DNA of 25,197 nt. It comes from a virus. Shown here one piece after another: positions 3,412 to 13,559 of the stretch (position 1 is its first letter; every line of letters begins with the position of its first letter). The notes under the pieces were generated by a model. That model was given only the letters and a program-made list of their open reading frames with translations, did no database searches and was not told the DNA's origin. The stretch is taken from the IMG/VR virus record IMGVR_UViG_3300020469_000243, positions 1 to 25,197 of that record; one strand, 5' to 3'. The translations under genes were made by a program, and so were the position numbers.

Positions 3412-4374
3412 ATGGCAAATAGAGCAGAGACATTTAGATCAGGAAGATTTTATTTACCAACTAAAGATCTTACAAATCCAACTACGAAGTTTGGTAATAT
3501 CACGCCAGCTTTCAACAATAATTATGATGTGATGATAAATTTCAGTGATAGTAAAGAATTGAAAGCTTTTATCAACCAACATGGTTTCTATGATCAAAAT
3601 GGTGGTGCAAATTCACCATTCAATGCAGGTTCATATCTAGCTTTGTTTTGCTCTGAAGCAGTTTTACCAGGTTCTGAATTACAGGCAGCACAAGTAAGTG
3701 GATTGAGACAGGGTATAACACAAAAGTATGCAACTTATAGAAGATTTCCAGATATAATTCTCACATATTATCTACAGACTGATTACTATACGAATGACGT
3801 GTTCAATGCGTGGATGGAATTCATATCACCCACTAGGACAATGGACGGAACTTTTGGTTCAAATGTAGACAAAAGAAAGAATAGTGAACCTTCCTTCAGA
3901 AGAATGAAGTATCCAAATTTATATAAGTGTAATATGGAGATAACTGCTTTCGATAGGGATACCACCAGTGAATTTTCTAAAATGAATAAAACAAGTAGGT
4001 TCAACACTCAAATACCTAGTAGCATGACATATCACATCATAAATGCCTTTCCAACAAATATTGTTGCTGCACCATTGGCATATGGAAGAGCAGAGTTGAT
4101 AAAAACAACTATTACATTCACGTATGAACAGTATCATACATCAAGGACATCGAGAAAGGATTTCATACTCAAAGAGTCAGATGATGGTGCAGACGTAAGA
4201 AATCCAGATTTAGTATTCAATGCTGAACAAGGATCAACAGATAACACTAGCACTGATAGTGAGGAGCAAGCAGTCAAGGCAGAGAATAGCAAGACCAAAG
4301 AGAAAAAGAAAAAACCATTTACTAGAGAACAAATTCTTAATACACGAAATAAGTTTGTCAAGATGGGTTTATAA
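3412..4374 (+). CDS. gp54: Baseplate tail-tube initiator gp54
   Basis: A 320-residue protein, the same length as T4 gp54, which binds gp48 on the hub and nucleates gp19 tail-tube polymerisation. It shows a tube-protein-like fold pattern: an N-terminal 'NNYDVMINFSDSKELKAF' strand region, a central 'ALFCSEAVLPGSELQAAQVS' segment typical of tube proteins, 'MEFISPTR', and the C-terminal strand pair 'MTYHIINAFPTNIVAAPLAY' and 'TTITFTYEQYHT' (about residues 204-243). The last 75 residues are a hydrophilic extension (acidic, then KEKKKKP) that is probably outside the tube fold. It lies divergent to gp4 with only 27 bases between the start codons, and no clear plus-strand late promoter was found there. 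A gp19-like tail-tube paralogue is a less likely alternative. Confidence 0.82.
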   Translation: MANRAETFRSGRFYLPTKDLTNPTTKFGNITPAFNNNYDVMINFSDSKELKAFINQHGFYDQNGGANSPFNAGSYLALFCSEAVLPGSELQAAQVSGLRQGITQKYATYRRFPDIILTYYLQTDYYTNDVFNAWMEFISPTRTMDGTFGSNVDKRKNSEPSFRRMKYPNLYKCNMEITAFDRDTTSEFSKMNKTSRFNTQIPSSMTYHIINAFPTNIVAAPLAYGRAELIKTTITFTYEQYHTSRTSRKDFILKESDDGADVRNPDLVFNAEQGSTDNTSTDSEEQAVKAENSKTKEKKKKPFTREQILNTRNKFVKMGL

Positions 4375-4420: not shown

Positions 4421-5149
4421 ATGCCTTTACCAAAGGTTATTGCACCTACATTTGAATTGCAACTTATATCGCAAGAAAAGAAAGTAAAGTACAGACCCTT
4501 TTTAGTCAAAGAGGAGAAAATTTTACTCATTGCACTAGAGAATGGATCCGATGCTGACATCAGTGCCACACTCAAAAGTGTATTGAAATCATGCATCATC
4601 ACCCGTGGTGTTGATGTTGAGAACCTACCTAGTTTTGAATTAGAGTATTTGTTCTTGAATGTAAGAGGTAAATCTATTGGTGAGTCAGTTGAACTTATTG
4701 TCACTTGTCAAGACGACAACGAGACTAAAGTTCCGTTGACTGTAAAAATGTCAGATATCAAGTTAGAAGTCCCAGATGGACACACTGACATGATAAAACT
4801 GAACAATGACATAAACATCAAGATGAAATATCCATCAATGCAACAATTCTTAGACAATAATTTTGTAGTCTCTGATTTAGATGGTGCTGAAAGGATAGAT
4901 AAGGCATTTGGTGCGGTGATTGATTGTATTGACACTATATTCACCGTTGATGAGGCATGGAGTGCAACAGACTGCACAAAGAAAGAACTTACTAAGTTTA
5001 TTGAGCAATTGAATTCTAGTCAATTTGCAGAAATTGAAAATTTCTTTGCGACCATGCCAAAATTACAGTATAAAACAACAGTGAAAAATCCAAAAACTAA
5101 GAAAGAGTCTGAAGTAGTAATTGAGGGTTTATCCAATTTTTTCGCATAA
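4421..5149 (+). CDS. gp26: Baseplate hub assembly protein gp26 (T4 baseplate family)
   Basis: A 242-residue protein starting MPLPKVIAPTFELQLIS. This start and the following 'KYRPFLVKEEKILLIALE' are the signature of the T4 gp26-type baseplate family (Pfam T4_baseplate). Members begin with a Pro-rich strand, then 'y.Y.pflvk.Ek.LliA.e'. In T4, gp26 is required for hub assembly. The C-terminal part is helical and ends in a small beta region. The final codons read through TTTTTTC just before the stop, and the next small ORF lies in the -1 frame with no stop between them. A longer gp26-fusion product is therefore possible, as for tail assembly chaperone pairs of other phages. Its stop overlaps the next start as TAATG. 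Confidence 0.9.
   Translation: MPLPKVIAPTFELQLISQEKKVKYRPFLVKEEKILLIALENGSDADISATLKSVLKSCIITRGVDVENLPSFELEYLFLNVRGKSIGESVELIVTCQDDNETKVPLTVKMSDIKLEVPDGHTDMIKLNNDINIKMKYPSMQQFLDNNFVVSDLDGAERIDKAFGAVIDCIDTIFTVDEAWSATDCTKKELTKFIEQLNSSQFAEIENFFATMPKLQYKTTVKNPKTKKESEVVIEGLSNFFA
5137..5143 (+). other. Candidate -1 ribosomal frameshift site (T TTT TTC)
   Basis: In the gp26 frame the last codons are AAT TTT TTC GCA TAA, so the heptamer T TTT TTC has the canonical X XXY YYZ phasing. A -1 slip continues as CGC ATA ATG into the following ORF without a stop. A hairpin starts 18 bases downstream. Confidence 0.55.
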
Positions 5150-5346
5150 TGCTATATCATACCAGCATTGATGCTATGCTGGAGACAAATTTTGCTCTCC
5201 TTCAACATCATAACTGGTCTCTAATTGATATAGAAAACATGCTTCCTTGGGAAAGGGACGTTTATGTGAATTACCTTATAAAATACCTTGAGAAACAAAA
5301 ATTAGAAGCAAAGCAAGCGGAAGCAGCTAATGCAAACACCTGGTAG
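5149..5346 (+). CDS. gp51: Small gp51-like baseplate hub assembly protein
   Basis: A 65-residue protein that follows gp26 with a TAATG overlap. It contains 'LQHHNWSLIDIENMLPWERD' followed by 'VYVNYLIKYLEKQK', a short helical protein of the type annotated as gp51 (hub assembly catalyst) beside gp26 in cyanophages. It is much shorter than T4 gp51 (about 249 residues), so the name is positional. The pattern of a Trp-Ser/Leu turn followed by a 'mlpwEr' helix resembles the second reading frame of tail assembly chaperones (lambda T, P2 E'). It can be made alone from ATG 5149 or as the tail of a gp26 fusion. The C-terminus is Ala/Gln-rich. Confidence 0.7.
   Translation: MLYHTSIDAMLETNFALLQHHNWSLIDIENMLPWERDVYVNYLIKYLEKQKLEAKQAEAANANTW
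5162..5182 (+). other. Hairpin downstream of the slippery site
   Basis: CCAGCAT (5162-5168) and ATGCTGG (5176-5182) pair perfectly over 7 bp around a seven-base loop, TGATGCT. The loop bases ATGC could also pair with GCAT at 5144-5147, which would give a small H-type pseudoknot. It lies inside coding sequence and may stimulate frameshifting; the 18-base distance is longer than typical. Confidence 0.45.
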
Positions 5347-6691
5347 AAGAACTCAATCACGTACTCCTATGTTCCAAATTGGACGTAGGATGAATGTTGT
5401 TGGTAGAAATTTGTCTAATATATCAGAAGAAACTCAGATAGATAAACCGCAAATAAGAATATTAGGAAGAATTATATCTCAATTGGACAGTATGAACACC
5501 AATTTGAGAGATATGAGTGATATTATTAGAAGAGATGTTGATTCAAAACAGAAATATTACAGGGAAGAACTAAAAATACTCAAAAAGGACTCGCAAAATT
5601 TACAAAATACAAATATAAGATTATTCACACAAAGTAGAAAAGGTTTAGCTACAGCAGCAGGTGCATTAGGTGCTGCACAGGTAAGTACAGGTAATGTAGG
5701 AGGAGCAGCACAGAGTTTTGGTGCAGCAGCAGCGTTGATGTCACCTGAGATTATTGAATTGTTTACAGGAGCAGTTGTCAATTCCCTTGCTCTAAGAGGA
5801 ATTCTTGGTAATAGGGGAGCAGGTGTAAACACTGCTTCTAGAGTAGCAGGTGCATCAAAACTTAGAAATCCTTTGCTCATAACAGCAGCACTTGCAGCAT
5901 CATTCATAATACCAGCACTTGCTAAGTCAAATCAAAACGCTGACAGGAGAAGATTGGAGACTGCACAAAAAACTATAAAGGGTGCTGAAACAATTGACAG
6001 AAAGGATGTTGGTAGATTTAGGACACAATTAGACAGATTTGACAGAATACTCTCAACTGTATCAGTAGATAGGAAAAGACAACAACGAGGTGTCGTGGAT
6101 GAAAGTCTTTTAGAGGAGACAAAAGATAAAACTCCCATATTATCTTCAATCAAAAAAGGAATATCAGACTTCTTCAAAGATAAGTCTTCAGATAAAAAAG
6201 TAGAAAAAAAAGAGAGTAAGCAAGTTATAGAAGAGAAAAAGGTACAAAATAAAGAGAGTAAGCAATTTATAGAAGAGAAAAAGGTAGAGAATAATCTTGT
6301 GGAGGAGGTAAGTAACAATATCAGTTTCTTAGGTGATGAAGTCAATGTCACTAACATAGATCCTAAGATAAACCTTTCAAATGAAGTAATTCAAAATACA
6401 ACATTTAGTGATGAAATATCAAGCATATTCAGTCCTAATGATGACTTTAGTGTGTCTGTTCCAAACTTGAGTGTAAAAGAGATGGGAAATAAAATTGCAA
6501 ATACTGATTCTAACATCAGTATTATGAATTTAGATAGTGGTAGTGAGGGTGAAAAACAATCGTCAAGTGGGTTTGTGGGAAATGCAGCTACACCCACAAG
6601 TGTAAATGTGACAACCAAATTCAATAGTAGTGGTGGTCTTATTGATAAAATTGATTATGCTTCATCTCTTAGAGCACCTGTATTCTCATGA
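5330..6691 (+). CDS. Tape-measure-like tail or hub protein I
   Basis: A 453-residue protein with no named family that I can assign. In order it shows a basic N-terminus, a probable coiled coil (about residues 45-100), an Ala/Gly-rich hydrophobic stretch (about 105-165), a clear membrane-type helix 'LLITAALAASFIIPALA' (about 182-198), a charged region with a 14-residue tandem repeat (about 294-321), and a Ser/Asn-rich C-terminus likely to form strands. A coiled coil plus a hydrophobic segment is the usual look of a tail tape measure, which gp29 provides in T4. The position directly after gp26/gp51 and before gp27 agrees. Its start overlaps the previous gene by 17 bases and its end overlaps the next gene as ATGA. 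Function is inferred from architecture and context only. Confidence 0.7.
   Translation: MQTPGRRTQSRTPMFQIGRRMNVVGRNLSNISEETQIDKPQIRILGRIISQLDSMNTNLRDMSDIIRRDVDSKQKYYREELKILKKDSQNLQNTNIRLFTQSRKGLATAAGALGAAQVSTGNVGGAAQSFGAAAALMSPEIIELFTGAVVNSLALRGILGNRGAGVNTASRVAGASKLRNPLLITAALAASFIIPALAKSNQNADRRRLETAQKTIKGAETIDRKDVGRFRTQLDRFDRILSTVSVDRKRQQRGVVDESLLEETKDKTPILSSIKKGISDFFKDKSSDKKVEKKESKQVIEEKKVQNKESKQFIEEKKVENNLVEEVSNNISFLGDEVNVTNIDPKINLSNEVIQNTTFSDEISSIFSPNDDFSVSVPNLSVKEMGNKIANTDSNISIMNLDSGSEGEKQSSSGFVGNAATPTSVNVTTKFNSSGGLIDKIDYASSLRAPVFS
6209..6292 (+). repeat. 42-base tandem duplication inside the tape-measure-like gene
   Basis: Units 6209-6250 and 6251-6292 differ at three of 42 bases. They encode two 14-residue copies, KESKQVIEEKKVQN and KESKQFIEEKKVEN. 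The unit keeps frame, and the high identity suggests a recent duplication. Confidence 0.85.
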
Positions 6692-8259
6692 TAGAGGCAA
6701 AAGTAACATCCACTGCAAATAAAACTCTAAAGGCAAGTGTATTCCTTAAAAATCAACTTGCGAGAAGTATAAGATTAGAGAGGGGACTAGAGAAAAAATC
6801 TATTACTGTCAAAACGAAACTTTTAAAAGATAGAGATCGTACACTAAAAGCACTACTGTCGAGGAGTAAAGAAGACAAAAAAGATAAAAAAGGAGTCGTT
6901 GGGACACTTGGAGTGCTTGGTGGTGGTCTAATAGGTAGAAGATTTCTTGGTAGAGGTGGTGGTGGAATTGGAAGGGTGCCTAAAATACCAAGACTTCCTA
7001 CAAGGGGTGGTGCAGTTTTATCTAGGTCTAGTAAAGTTGGTAGGTTAGGTAGATTTGGACCTCTTGCTGTCATAGGCACTGGATTAGATTTTGCAGGTAG
7101 GAGAGCAGAGGGTCAAACTAATTTACAAGCAGGGGTTGGTGCAGGTGGTGGTCTTGCAGGTGCATTGGCAGGTGCAAAAGCAGGTGCAGTATTAGGTACA
7201 ACTCTTGGAGGACCGATAGGAACTGTTGTTGGTGGAGTAGGAGGTAGTATAATAGGAAGTTTGGCAGGTGGAAGACTTGCAGATTTATTCACAGGTGCGG
7301 ACAGAAGAAGAAAGTTTGAAGAACGTAGGGCAATATTGTCAAGTGAAAAAACACTATTTTCAGAATCTTTAGATGACTTAGATAGAGTATTAGACAAATT
7401 AGAAGATAGTAATTTTTTAGGAGCAGTTAGAAAAGCGAAGGATGATAAAGAAGAAGACCGTCCAAGATTCTTAATACCCAGACCTATCATTCCTTTGGGA
7501 GGTGCAAAAGTCGATGGTAAATCTTTTCAAAGAGTCGTAGGTGAGGAACTCGCCAAATATGCTGCTATTGCAGGTGTTACATTTCTTTTGATACCATCTG
7601 ACCCAACAGATGTCGCTACGACTGCACCTTTAGCAATTAAGTTGCAAGCACTCGCAAAAAGCACAAGATTATTTAAAGCACTAAAAGCAATTTTTCTCAA
7701 ACCCCCTAAGGTTTTACAACCAGGTAAAGATATACCAGGTATATCAGCAAAAGGGATAAGGATTAGAGCAGAGGCATTGATGAAAAAATTGAATCCAAAT
7801 ATTAAGTTTGACCGCCCTAAAGTTAAACCAAAGTTCAGGAAAATAAAAACAAAAGTAAAAGATAGTGATATACAGGATCTTATCAAAAAAGGAAACCTAA
7901 GTGAGGAAAGTCCTATATTTGAATTATTTAAACCTAAAACTAAAAAAATCAATACTAATGTAGAGAGAGGTAGTGGTAAGAATCTAAATCCTAGTAAAAA
8001 TAAAACTCCTAAACGTGAAATTAATAACACAGAAAATATGGAAAGATTTAAAAATAAAGATTTAACTGACGCTGGTGGCATTTCAGGTAGTGACATTGCC
8101 TTGGCACCGACAAATAACATATTCCTCATCAAGGAGGGTGACACTAATATATCACCACCAGCAGTATTCAATGAAGGAGACACAATAGTGTTTGGTGGAT
8201 CTGGATCTTCTAGTGACCTATCTAAATATGTCGAGATGACACAATTATTTACGACATGA
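6688..8259 (+). CDS. Tape-measure-like tail or hub protein II
   Basis: A 523-residue basic protein with no family I can name. The first 70 residues are Lys/Arg-rich and helical. Two glycine-rich hydrophobic blocks follow: about residues 70-95 ('GVVGTLGVLGGGLIGRRFLG') and about 144-200 (many GxxxG steps, such as 'AGALAGAKAGAVLGTTLGGP'). The second block resembles glycine-zipper membrane inserts. After a short charged helix come mixed alpha/beta and very basic segments, and a C-terminal strand region ending near 'NEGDTIVFGGSGSSSDLSKY'. The layout parallels the preceding gene, so two consecutive tape-measure-like proteins seem to be encoded. It overlaps both neighbours as ATGA, the mark of translational coupling. 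A role in the tail lumen or hub and in membrane passage of DNA is inference. Confidence 0.7.
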   Translation: MIEAKVTSTANKTLKASVFLKNQLARSIRLERGLEKKSITVKTKLLKDRDRTLKALLSRSKEDKKDKKGVVGTLGVLGGGLIGRRFLGRGGGGIGRVPKIPRLPTRGGAVLSRSSKVGRLGRFGPLAVIGTGLDFAGRRAEGQTNLQAGVGAGGGLAGALAGAKAGAVLGTTLGGPIGTVVGGVGGSIIGSLAGGRLADLFTGADRRRKFEERRAILSSEKTLFSESLDDLDRVLDKLEDSNFLGAVRKAKDDKEEDRPRFLIPRPIIPLGGAKVDGKSFQRVVGEELAKYAAIAGVTFLLIPSDPTDVATTAPLAIKLQALAKSTRLFKALKAIFLKPPKVLQPGKDIPGISAKGIRIRAEALMKKLNPNIKFDRPKVKPKFRKIKTKVKDSDIQDLIKKGNLSEESPIFELFKPKTKKINTNVERGSGKNLNPSKNKTPKREINNTENMERFKNKDLTDAGGISGSDIALAPTNNIFLIKEGDTNISPPAVFNEGDTIVFGGSGSSSDLSKYVEMTQLFTT

Positions 8260-9495: not shown

Positions 9496-9723
9496 ATGAA
9501 AACAATCGAAGACCACATCAAAAAGGACAAAGAAATCCTTGACGATCCACAAGCAAACCCTGCAGCACGTAGACATGCAGAGGAAGAACTGCATGATTTA
9601 GAATCATATGCAGAGCATCACAAAGATGAGATAAATGCAGGTGATCATCATGACCCTAATGTACTAGAGGTATTCTGTGATTTACATCCTGACGAACCAG
9701 AGTGTTTGGTTTATGACGACTGA
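9496..9723 (+). CDS. cp12: CP12-like Calvin cycle regulator
   Basis: A 75-residue acidic protein. CP12 is an intrinsically disordered linker that binds glyceraldehyde-3-phosphate dehydrogenase and phosphoribulokinase and switches off the Calvin cycle. The C-terminal half fits: 'LEVFCDLHPDEPECLVYDD' has two Cys (C61 and C70) spaced C-x8-C around a Pro, and the acidic 'YDD' end, exactly where CP12 docks into GAPDH. Upstream, 'AARRHAEEELHDLESYAEHH' resembles the CP12 helix 'A...W..veEL.AEaaH'. The N-terminal Cys pair of plant and many cyanobacterial CP12s is absent. Phage-borne CP12 is known in marine cyanophages and is thought to divert host carbon to the pentose phosphate pathway. It starts one base after gp27, and its TGA overlaps the gp5-like ATG, so expression is tied to late tail genes. 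Confidence 0.85.
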   Translation: MKTIEDHIKKDKEILDDPQANPAARRHAEEELHDLESYAEHHKDEINAGDHHDPNVLEVFCDLHPDEPECLVYDD

Positions 9724-11754: not shown

Positions 11755-12816
11755 ATGAATGAACATGAAATCCTCCTAAAGGATAAAAGATACCAGCAAT
11801 TATTAAAAAGGCAAAGTCAATATGAAAAAAACAGTGAAAAGTGGAATGGAGTTCAGAAAAAAATAGATTTTAGGAAGAAGGTACTAAAGTTCACGGGGTC
11901 AAATAGCAATGAGAAATTAAAAACAAATCAAGTCGTTCAAGGTTATTTTGATCAAGAAACTGGTAAGGGATACATCAATAACAAAGAGGTTAGTATAGAA
12001 GAGTATCTCAAGTTTCAAGGGATGACCAAGACAGATCAGTTGATCAATTATGGAGAGGATAGAGATAAGGTTGAAGTAAAAAATGATAAAACTGGAATCA
12101 AAGATGTTCTCACAACTCTTGATGAAGTTGAAGATGTAAGTGATGAAGAAAAAAAACAAATAGATGAATCATTAGGTAGAAAGAATGCAGATGGCAGTGC
12201 ACCAGGTCAAAATGAAGAAACTACCCCACCTGTCACAACAGAAAAACCTAAGGAAGTAACAAAAGTACCACCAATTATAATCAATCACGCAGAGTGTGGT
12301 CACCTTACTTTTGGTGATGAGAAAGATGAGGAGACGGAAAGACCAAGAGACGTGGGTCTTTATGCTGGAGACAGTAATGCACTTCGATTGTTTAGAGATG
12401 GTGGATTTGAATTGAGATCTAGTGAGAGTGCAGGTGATAATAAAATAAAGGGATCATCGATAATGCAGGTGTGTAATAACGCAACTTTGCTTGTCAACTC
12501 AGAGGGTGACGTAACAATTAGAGCGAGAAACAAACTTAGATTAGTAGCGGACTTGATAGAGATTGAAGCAAAGAATGCCAGCACTGATGGTGTGACCATT
12601 ATTGCAGAGCATGACATCAAACTCAGAGCAAATAATAATACTATAATTACCTCAGATAATGTTACAATAGATGCGAAGGAAAGAATCCTTTCACACTCTC
12701 AAGGATGGCAAGTTTTAATTGGTCAATATATTAGATTACATGAACCACAAACCAAAATATGTCCCGCATTTTTGAAGGAATATATAGAGGGGCAAATCAA
12801 AACATTGAGAAGTTAA
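11755..12816 (+). CDS. Needle or spike-like protein (possible separated gp5 C-terminal domain)
   Basis: A 353-residue protein beginning one base after the gp5-like stop. Residues 1-100 are charged and helical; residues about 115-175 are an acidic, Thr/Pro-rich linker. From about 200 the sequence turns into short regular beta repeats: 'LFRDGGFELRSSE', 'SIMQVCNNATLLVNSEGDVT', 'RARNKLRLVADLIEIEAKNA', 'IIAEHDIKLRANNNTIIT' and 'NVTIDAKE'. Repeating 'v.i.a...i.l.a..i.i.a' strands are what gp5 C-terminal domains and VgrG needles use to build a triple-stranded beta-helix. The gene order (gp27, gp5 OB-fold, then this) supports a tip or needle role. No metal-binding PAAR motif was recognised. The function is inferred. 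Confidence 0.72.
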   Translation: MNEHEILLKDKRYQQLLKRQSQYEKNSEKWNGVQKKIDFRKKVLKFTGSNSNEKLKTNQVVQGYFDQETGKGYINNKEVSIEEYLKFQGMTKTDQLINYGEDRDKVEVKNDKTGIKDVLTTLDEVEDVSDEEKKQIDESLGRKNADGSAPGQNEETTPPVTTEKPKEVTKVPPIIINHAECGHLTFGDEKDEETERPRDVGLYAGDSNALRLFRDGGFELRSSESAGDNKIKGSSIMQVCNNATLLVNSEGDVTIRARNKLRLVADLIEIEAKNASTDGVTIIAEHDIKLRANNNTIITSDNVTIDAKERILSHSQGWQVLIGQYIRLHEPQTKICPAFLKEYIEGQIKTLRS

Positions 12817-13559
12817 TTGTGGCAGGTATTCGTGACTTAGATAGTGGGAAGGTTTATATAGGACCTGAGGATCCGAAGTTGGATAAATCTATAGATACAC
12901 TAAATGGTGATAAACCATTTGAGGGGACTCTTGCAGTTACAGGTCCGACATTTATTGGTGGACACTCAACAAATGCAGCAGGGGTGCTCAATGTAGGTAC
13001 AGCATTAGGTGATTTCAAACCTAATACAGATGGTAGAGCAGTAGATGTAAGTGGTGATGTTAATATTGTAGGTGAAAAGGCAGTGAACGCAGTGTATATT
13101 GATGGTGATGTATATGTTACAGGTAAGGTAGATTGTGGTAATAAAGGGAGACTTGCTTCTAGATTCGCAACTGCTGACAGTTTACCCAAACCATTCGACA
13201 TGGTTCATCCTACCAAGGGTGAGGGTCATAGACTTAGATATGCTTGTATTGAAGGACCTGAGGTTGGTGTATATTTTAGAGGTAGAACTCAAGATAACGA
13301 GATTATATTACCAGACTACTGGAAGGATCTAGTGGTGATTGATACTATCACCGTTCAAACACAACCAGTTGGATCAGCACAGAATATTATAGTGAAGGAG
13401 TGGGATGATAATAAGATAACTCTTGAGGGTGTGACTGATTGCTTCTATCATGTTTATGGTGAGAGGAAGGATGTGAACCCACTTGTGGTAGAATATGAAG
13501 GACAAACTTGGGAAGATTATCCAGATCCAAAATACAATGATCCTGCATACTCTAGATAG
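12759..13559 (+). CDS. Fibre or spike-like structural protein
   Basis: A 266-residue frame from the ATG at 12759, overlapping the previous gene by 58 bases. A GTG at 12819, three bases after that stop, is a good alternative start (246 residues), because the first 20 residues look like out-of-frame reading of the neighbour and no ribosome site precedes the ATG. The N-terminal half holds beta repeats of the form 'gtl.v.G...i.g' and 'VDVSGDVNIVG', 'VYIDGDVYVTGKV'. The C-terminal half has 'MVHPTKGEGHRLRYACIEGP' and 'EVGVYFRGR', a motif I know from cyanophage tail-fibre-like structural proteins, followed by a beta domain with 'LPDYWKDLVVIDTITVQTQP'. The next gene encodes a second copy of this domain. 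Confidence 0.75.
   Translation: MSRIFEGIYRGANQNIEKLIVAGIRDLDSGKVYIGPEDPKLDKSIDTLNGDKPFEGTLAVTGPTFIGGHSTNAAGVLNVGTALGDFKPNTDGRAVDVSGDVNIVGEKAVNAVYIDGDVYVTGKVDCGNKGRLASRFATADSLPKPFDMVHPTKGEGHRLRYACIEGPEVGVYFRGRTQDNEIILPDYWKDLVVIDTITVQTQPVGSAQNIIVKEWDDNKITLEGVTDCFYHVYGERKDVNPLVVEYEGQTWEDYPDPKYNDPAYSR

Follow-up and report, generated by a model that had tools for sequence, protein, structure and literature searches.

The tail assembly chaperones (TACs) G and GT of phage lambda are a two-form pair made by a −1 frameshift on the slippery sequence GGGAAAG, encoded ahead of the tape measure gene (gene order from the record), and those of phage P2, E and E', are likewise a short and a long form, produced when ribosomes shift by −1 on T TTT TTG directly ahead of the tape measure gene, with the frameshift site annotated in the P2 record (in phase at L353:2679-2685). 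Frameshifting is thought to set how much of each chaperone form is made, and hence tail assembly. It is reportedly conserved in several groups of T4-like phages, and T4 is said to use genes 26 and 51. The two TAC forms of T4-like phages, short and long, are the subject of Vladimirov, Gautam and Davidson (2022, Virology 566:9-15, PMID 34826709), work known here through the articles that cite it (PMC10885494, PMC12846349); some T4-like phages are described as having a short gene and a fusion gene in place of frameshifting (PMC10885494), and poly-T slippery sequences are said to be present in the TAC-N genes of T4-like phages (PMC12846349). A review of T4 lists gp26 and gp51 as hub assembly chaperones, and describes gp51 as required for assembly, not found in the particle and of unknown function (PMC3004832). 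The locus studied here is the frameshift version of this published T4-like chaperone pair, a kind that has itself been in print since 2022; new here are this member, the breadth of the phenomenon, an upstream Shine–Dalgarno (SD)-like element and a variant in Ackermannviridae. Neither the SD-like element, nor the breadth of start-less gp51 frames, nor the Ackermannviridae variant was found in the literature, to the extent that the 2022 paper is represented in its citing articles.

The window (that is, the whole stretch of viral DNA analysed, 25,197 nucleotides of IMG/VR record IMGVR_UViG_3300020469_000243), from a marine T4-like cyanophage, carries a gp26-family open reading frame (ORF; PF12322, E 3e-65, 220 bits where 24.5 is the cut-off; phrog_150, E 6e-71) followed by a gp51-like ORF (phrog_634, E 1.5e-21; Table 1). 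The genes run in the order tail tube, gp26, gp51, one gene without a family match and a tape-measure-like gene, which by these assignments is the order of tail assembly chaperone pairs, between the major tail protein and the tape measure. The gp26 ORF ends AAT TTT TTC GCA TAA (5135-5149), and the codons TTT (5138-5140) and TTC (5141-5143) of its frame place the heptamer T TTT TTC in phase. The preliminary description of this DNA had proposed a −1 frameshift on this heptamer that fuses gp26 to the gp51-like protein; the sequence bears out the phasing and the position of the next ORF in the −1 frame without an intervening stop codon, the −1 frame being open from 5125. The fusion had been given there as 309 residues, and computes as 308 (gp26 residues 1-241 plus 67; 35.3 kDa). 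Predicted tryptic peptides of the short form (ESEVVIEGLSNFFA) and of the fusion (ESEVVIEGLSNFFR) are one residue apart; a fusion-specific peptide is predicted to start IMLYHTSIDAMLETNF, and a reinitiated gp51 is predicted to have the N terminus MLYH.

Table 1 Features of the gp26–gp51 junction and its surroundings in the window.
Feature	Positions	Strand	Basis or remark
Tail-tube-like gene, directly upstream of gp26	3412..4374	+	PF23849 E 1.5e-12; phrog_45 E 7e-25
gp26-family ORF, short form TAC-N, 242 aa, 27.3 kDa	4421..5149	+	PF12322, phrog_150
SD-like GAGGG, candidate frameshift stimulator	5123..5127	+	Ends 9 nt upstream of the heptamer
Slippery heptamer T TTT TTC	5137..5143	+	Sequence; in phase with gp26
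−1 frame coding stretch (gp51-like, TAC-C)	5143..5346	+	67 codons after the slip, plus stop
gp26 stop TAA	5147..5149	+	Sequence; overlaps ATG 5149-5151 (TAATG)
Possible separate 65-aa product, reinitiation at the overlapping ATG	5149..5346	+	Only where such an ATG exists
7-bp hairpin CCAGCAT/ATGCTGG	5162..5182	+	−9.0 kcal/mol; local to this clade
Next gene, 453 aa, no family match	5330..6691	+	Profile searches
Tape-measure-like gene, probable chaperone client	6688..8259	+	phrog_794 (tail length tape measure protein), E 4e-10

We consider it very probable that gene 26 and the gp51-like ORF together form a single programmed −1 frameshift gene yielding two chaperones, TAC-N (242 aa) and TAC-NC (308 aa). 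At the slippage efficiency that we presume, most ribosomes would stop at 5147 and release the short form, and some would slip back by one base on U UUU UUC, probably aided by the upstream SD-like GAGGG and by downstream RNA structure, and go on to make the long form, which would end in the helical gp51-like domain. The main ORFs of the window hold 5 in-phase copies of T TTT TTN in 7,699 codons, and a lone copy close to the end of one gene therefore proves little; what is decisive for the frameshift is conservation in relatives, which goes far beyond chance, rather than the one site in the window.

To assess this conservation, 337 gp26 loci were gathered from IMG/VR and named phages, and the 327 with both domains were scored. 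Of these, 326 have the gp51 domain in the −1 frame and none has it in the +1 frame, the lone other case being T4, in which the domain is fused in frame. Aligned across relatives, the junction keeps the heptamer and the −1 phase while the flanking codons vary: in-phase T TTT TTN is present at 197 of the 198 distinct junctions (last base C in 177, T in 18, A in 1 and G in 1), among them those of Prochlorococcus P-SSM2, Syn33, Vibrio nt-1, Aeromonas Ah1, Sinorhizobium phiM12, Agrobacterium OLIVR5, Rhizobium RHph_Y68, Ochrobactrum OC and Pelagibacter Mosig. Among known slippery sequences the T TTT TTG of P2 comes nearest, and the heptamer of RHph_Y68 has the same letters. Heptamer and phase are retained at 34-42% protein identity and below; a megablast search of the junction against phages gave no match.

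The choice of codons at the site was compared with expectations from codon use in the same genes across 78 lineages (clusters at 70% protein identity). All 78 lineages have T as the last base of the codon preceding Phe-Phe (47.6 expected, z 7.1), and 64 use TTC for the second Phe (22.5 expected, z 10.2), z values that overstate independence because the lineages share descent; the first Phe codon is TTT in all 78 (55.0 expected). The amino acid before Phe-Phe varies (Ser, Asp, Asn, Ala, Thr or His), and the consistency over six amino acids is not inflated by kinship. The preference for TTC fits a −1 frame that codes for protein immediately after the slip, and substitutions in that frame among 53 relatives (481, 212 and 1080 at codon positions 1, 2 and 3) show purifying (protein) selection on it. 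The conservation of heptamer and phase, the codon test and the in-frame fusion of T4 all support the −1 frameshift as first proposed.

A conserved run of six T could also serve transcriptional slippage, in which RNA polymerase would add one U on the run, moving ribosomes into the −1 frame and giving an identical fusion. However, six T are short for polymerase slippage, selection has not lengthened the run, which instead ends in TTC in the excess of lineages given above, and the SD-like element before the site acts on ribosomes; we regard this as highly improbable, and as the least probable of the readings considered.

Ribosomal frameshifting gains further weight from the start codons of the gp51 frame. 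After the slip, no ATG occurs within 25 codons of the −1 frame in 21 of 197 junctions, and in 79 further junctions the first ATG comes as late as +47 to +62, within the conserved core NFALMQHH...PWER, with the conserved gp51 domain beginning upstream of these late ATGs; many relatives are thus without a gp51 start codon, and therefore only a shift can make the conserved core. In the window's clade the first ATG lies at the gp26 stop (TAATG), an overlap also present in nt-1 and some other lineages, and because of it a separate 65-aa gp51 made by reinitiation is also possible there; most lineages either lack this ATG or have their first one 50-60 nt farther downstream. The rival reading in which the two proteins are separate, gp51 arises by termination–reinitiation at TAATG 5149 and the T run owes its conservation solely to a need for Phe-Phe in the protein strikes us as highly improbable: it fails at the junctions whose ATG is lacking or lies inside the core, a need for Phe-Phe leaves both the third-base T and the TTT (78/78 each) unexplained, and T4 has a fused protein. 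Reinitiation and frameshifting could nevertheless coexist in the window's clade.

Read as a frameshift product, cyanophage 'gp51' is a domain that forms the C-terminal end of a fusion and in many cases has no start codon that it could use by itself, and this reading corrects annotations that omit gp51 or start it at an internal ATG. In GenBank (records L173, L167 and L163), the gp51 frame frequently goes unannotated, as in ACG-2014e and Aeromonas Ah1, or is annotated from an internal ATG, as in Syn33 (MHHHKW), which cuts the conserved domain.

SD-like sequences have a role in −1 shifts (PMC10885494). Upstream of the heptamer, synonymous shuffles of codons −10 to −2 pair less strongly with the anti-SD than the actual sequences do (z −6.9, 78 lineages), as against z −1.6 to +3.1 in seven control regions of gp26 genes, and the third base of codon −5 is G in 39 lineages (20.5 expected in the codon test). 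The preferred SD-like motif ends 8 to 10 nt upstream of the heptamer, which matches the spacing between SD and slippery site in E. coli dnaX, and GAGGG may act as a stimulator.

Downstream, structure is in excess just after the site (mean z −1.40 over +12 to +72; windows elsewhere, +0.2 to −0.9), and a search across relatives for a single conserved helix downstream of the site found none. The perfect 7-bp hairpin noted in the preliminary description, which starts 18 nt after the heptamer, is real in the window and its positions are 73% paired within the near clade, but its pairs are lost outside the nearest relatives. Across the 78 lineages the homologous positions pair at 2.1 of 7 (slid controls, 1.5-3.3), and we reject the hairpin as a conserved stimulator of the family. 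An alternative stem (5148-5153/5164-5169) is better kept, with 92% pairing in the near clade; both lie within coding sequence.

A different candidate slippery sequence is found in the Ackermannviridae Matapan, MK-13, D5lw, IME250 and 3M, and in Vibrio phage K483, which have N NTT TTC in place of T TTT TTN (gp26 junctions L168:2527-2560, L355, L356, L357, L358 and L177). In Serratia phage 3M the site is G GTT TTC, the letters of the T7 gene 10 site. The −1 frame is still open in the N NTT TTC phages, often without an early ATG, and the Ackermannviridae have the −1 frame motif FHLIFEIDLLSYF...MPWHL in common; in Matapan, for example, the T6 heptamer is absent, and the −1 frame and the gp51 domain are retained with N NTT TTC at the same place. 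Acinetobacter nACB2 (L359), placed in Ackermannviridae, keeps T TTT TTT, and Menderavirus (L360) has T TTT TTC.

In T4, residues 1-201 of gp51 (249 aa) match the gp26 family (PF12322, E 4e-52) and the C-terminal part matches the gp51 domain (phrog_634, E 1e-23), matches that mark T4 gp51 as an in-frame gp26–gp51 fusion and T4 gp26 as the short form. In the T4-type Straboviridae scored (T4, RB43, Krischvirus, Aeromonas phiAS4, Acinetobacter and others), the fused gp51 passes directly from its first to its second domain at the shift point, and the nearby gp26 gene is without a gp51 domain; a profile of shifted gp51 domains matches the T4-type gp51 C terminus with probability 95 (E 2e-8). T4 gp26 and gp51 thus belong to the same families as the products studied here (PF12322, and PF12322 plus the gp51 domain, fused exactly at the shift point), but are separate genes on opposite strands without a frameshift, gp26 overlapping gene 25. 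Because T4 gp51 is fused at the shift point and gp26 is short, the two genes of T4 encode what relatives appear to make by the shift; T4 and its near kin rely for the two forms on a pair of paralogous genes, 26 for the short form and 51 for the long, fused one.

The same two products thus apparently come from a frameshift in most of the superfamily and from two genes in T4, which raises the question of what led a recoding signal to give way to a duplication, and by what route. A tree of the gp26 and gp51 domains joins T4-type gp51 in one clade (100/99) and the Straboviridae frameshift types in another (100/94); owing to long branches it does not place the branch point of the duplication, and the frameshift as ancestral state is therefore a matter of parsimony. 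On balance, although with limited confidence, we favour a scenario in which the T4 superfamily outside the T4-type Straboviridae uses a three-part signal as in bacterial dnaX (SD-like GAGGG or AAGG ending 8-10 nt upstream, T TTT TTN and downstream structure), replaced by duplication in the T4 line and by T7-gene-10-like N NTT TTC in most Ackermannviridae. In RB43 (L349:2501-4187), the fused gp51 gene is followed by a gp26-like gene and then probably gene 25, in tandem on one strand; this order is unlike the divergent order of T4 and may be nearer to the original duplication. A Foldseek search of a T4-type gp51 model against the PDB gave no meaningful match, and a PDB search by sequence gave none.

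With regard to function, TAC-N and TAC-NC are probably assembly chaperones for the tape measure; both forms would most likely serve the tape measure or a hub initiator, as lambda G/GT and P2 E/E' do. P2 E has 91 residues as against 242 in gp26 here, and hhalign detected no similarity of the gp51-like C-terminal extension to P2 E' (E 0.26) or lambda T (E 0.7); TACs differ widely, and similarity in sequence to either protein is not expected. In the structure model of gp26 (pLDDT 89.3), the N-domain (residues 1-86) aligns best with the HK97 tail assembly chaperone 2ob9, at 7% identity (VIA-align, Z 7.9, within the chance range according to the tool's note; 84 of 107 residues, rmsd 3.9). An uncharacterised Bacillus protein, 3fgx, ties at Z 7.9, and the next rows are 5ir0 (a PICI-element protein, Z 5.0) and an unrelated protein (Z 4.7); Foldseek returned no significant match for the gp26 model in the PDB (2ob9, E 0.57). 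The T4 fusion, the alignment to the HK97 chaperone and the literature are consistent with the earlier suggestion that gp26 and its small partner form a T4-like chaperone pair. Elsewhere in the window, a gene of the CP12 family, a regulator of host carbon metabolism, stands among the tail genes (9496-9723; PF02672, E 1.4e-12), and the ORFs 11755-12816 and 12759-13559 overlap by 58 bases (12759-12816) in different frames.
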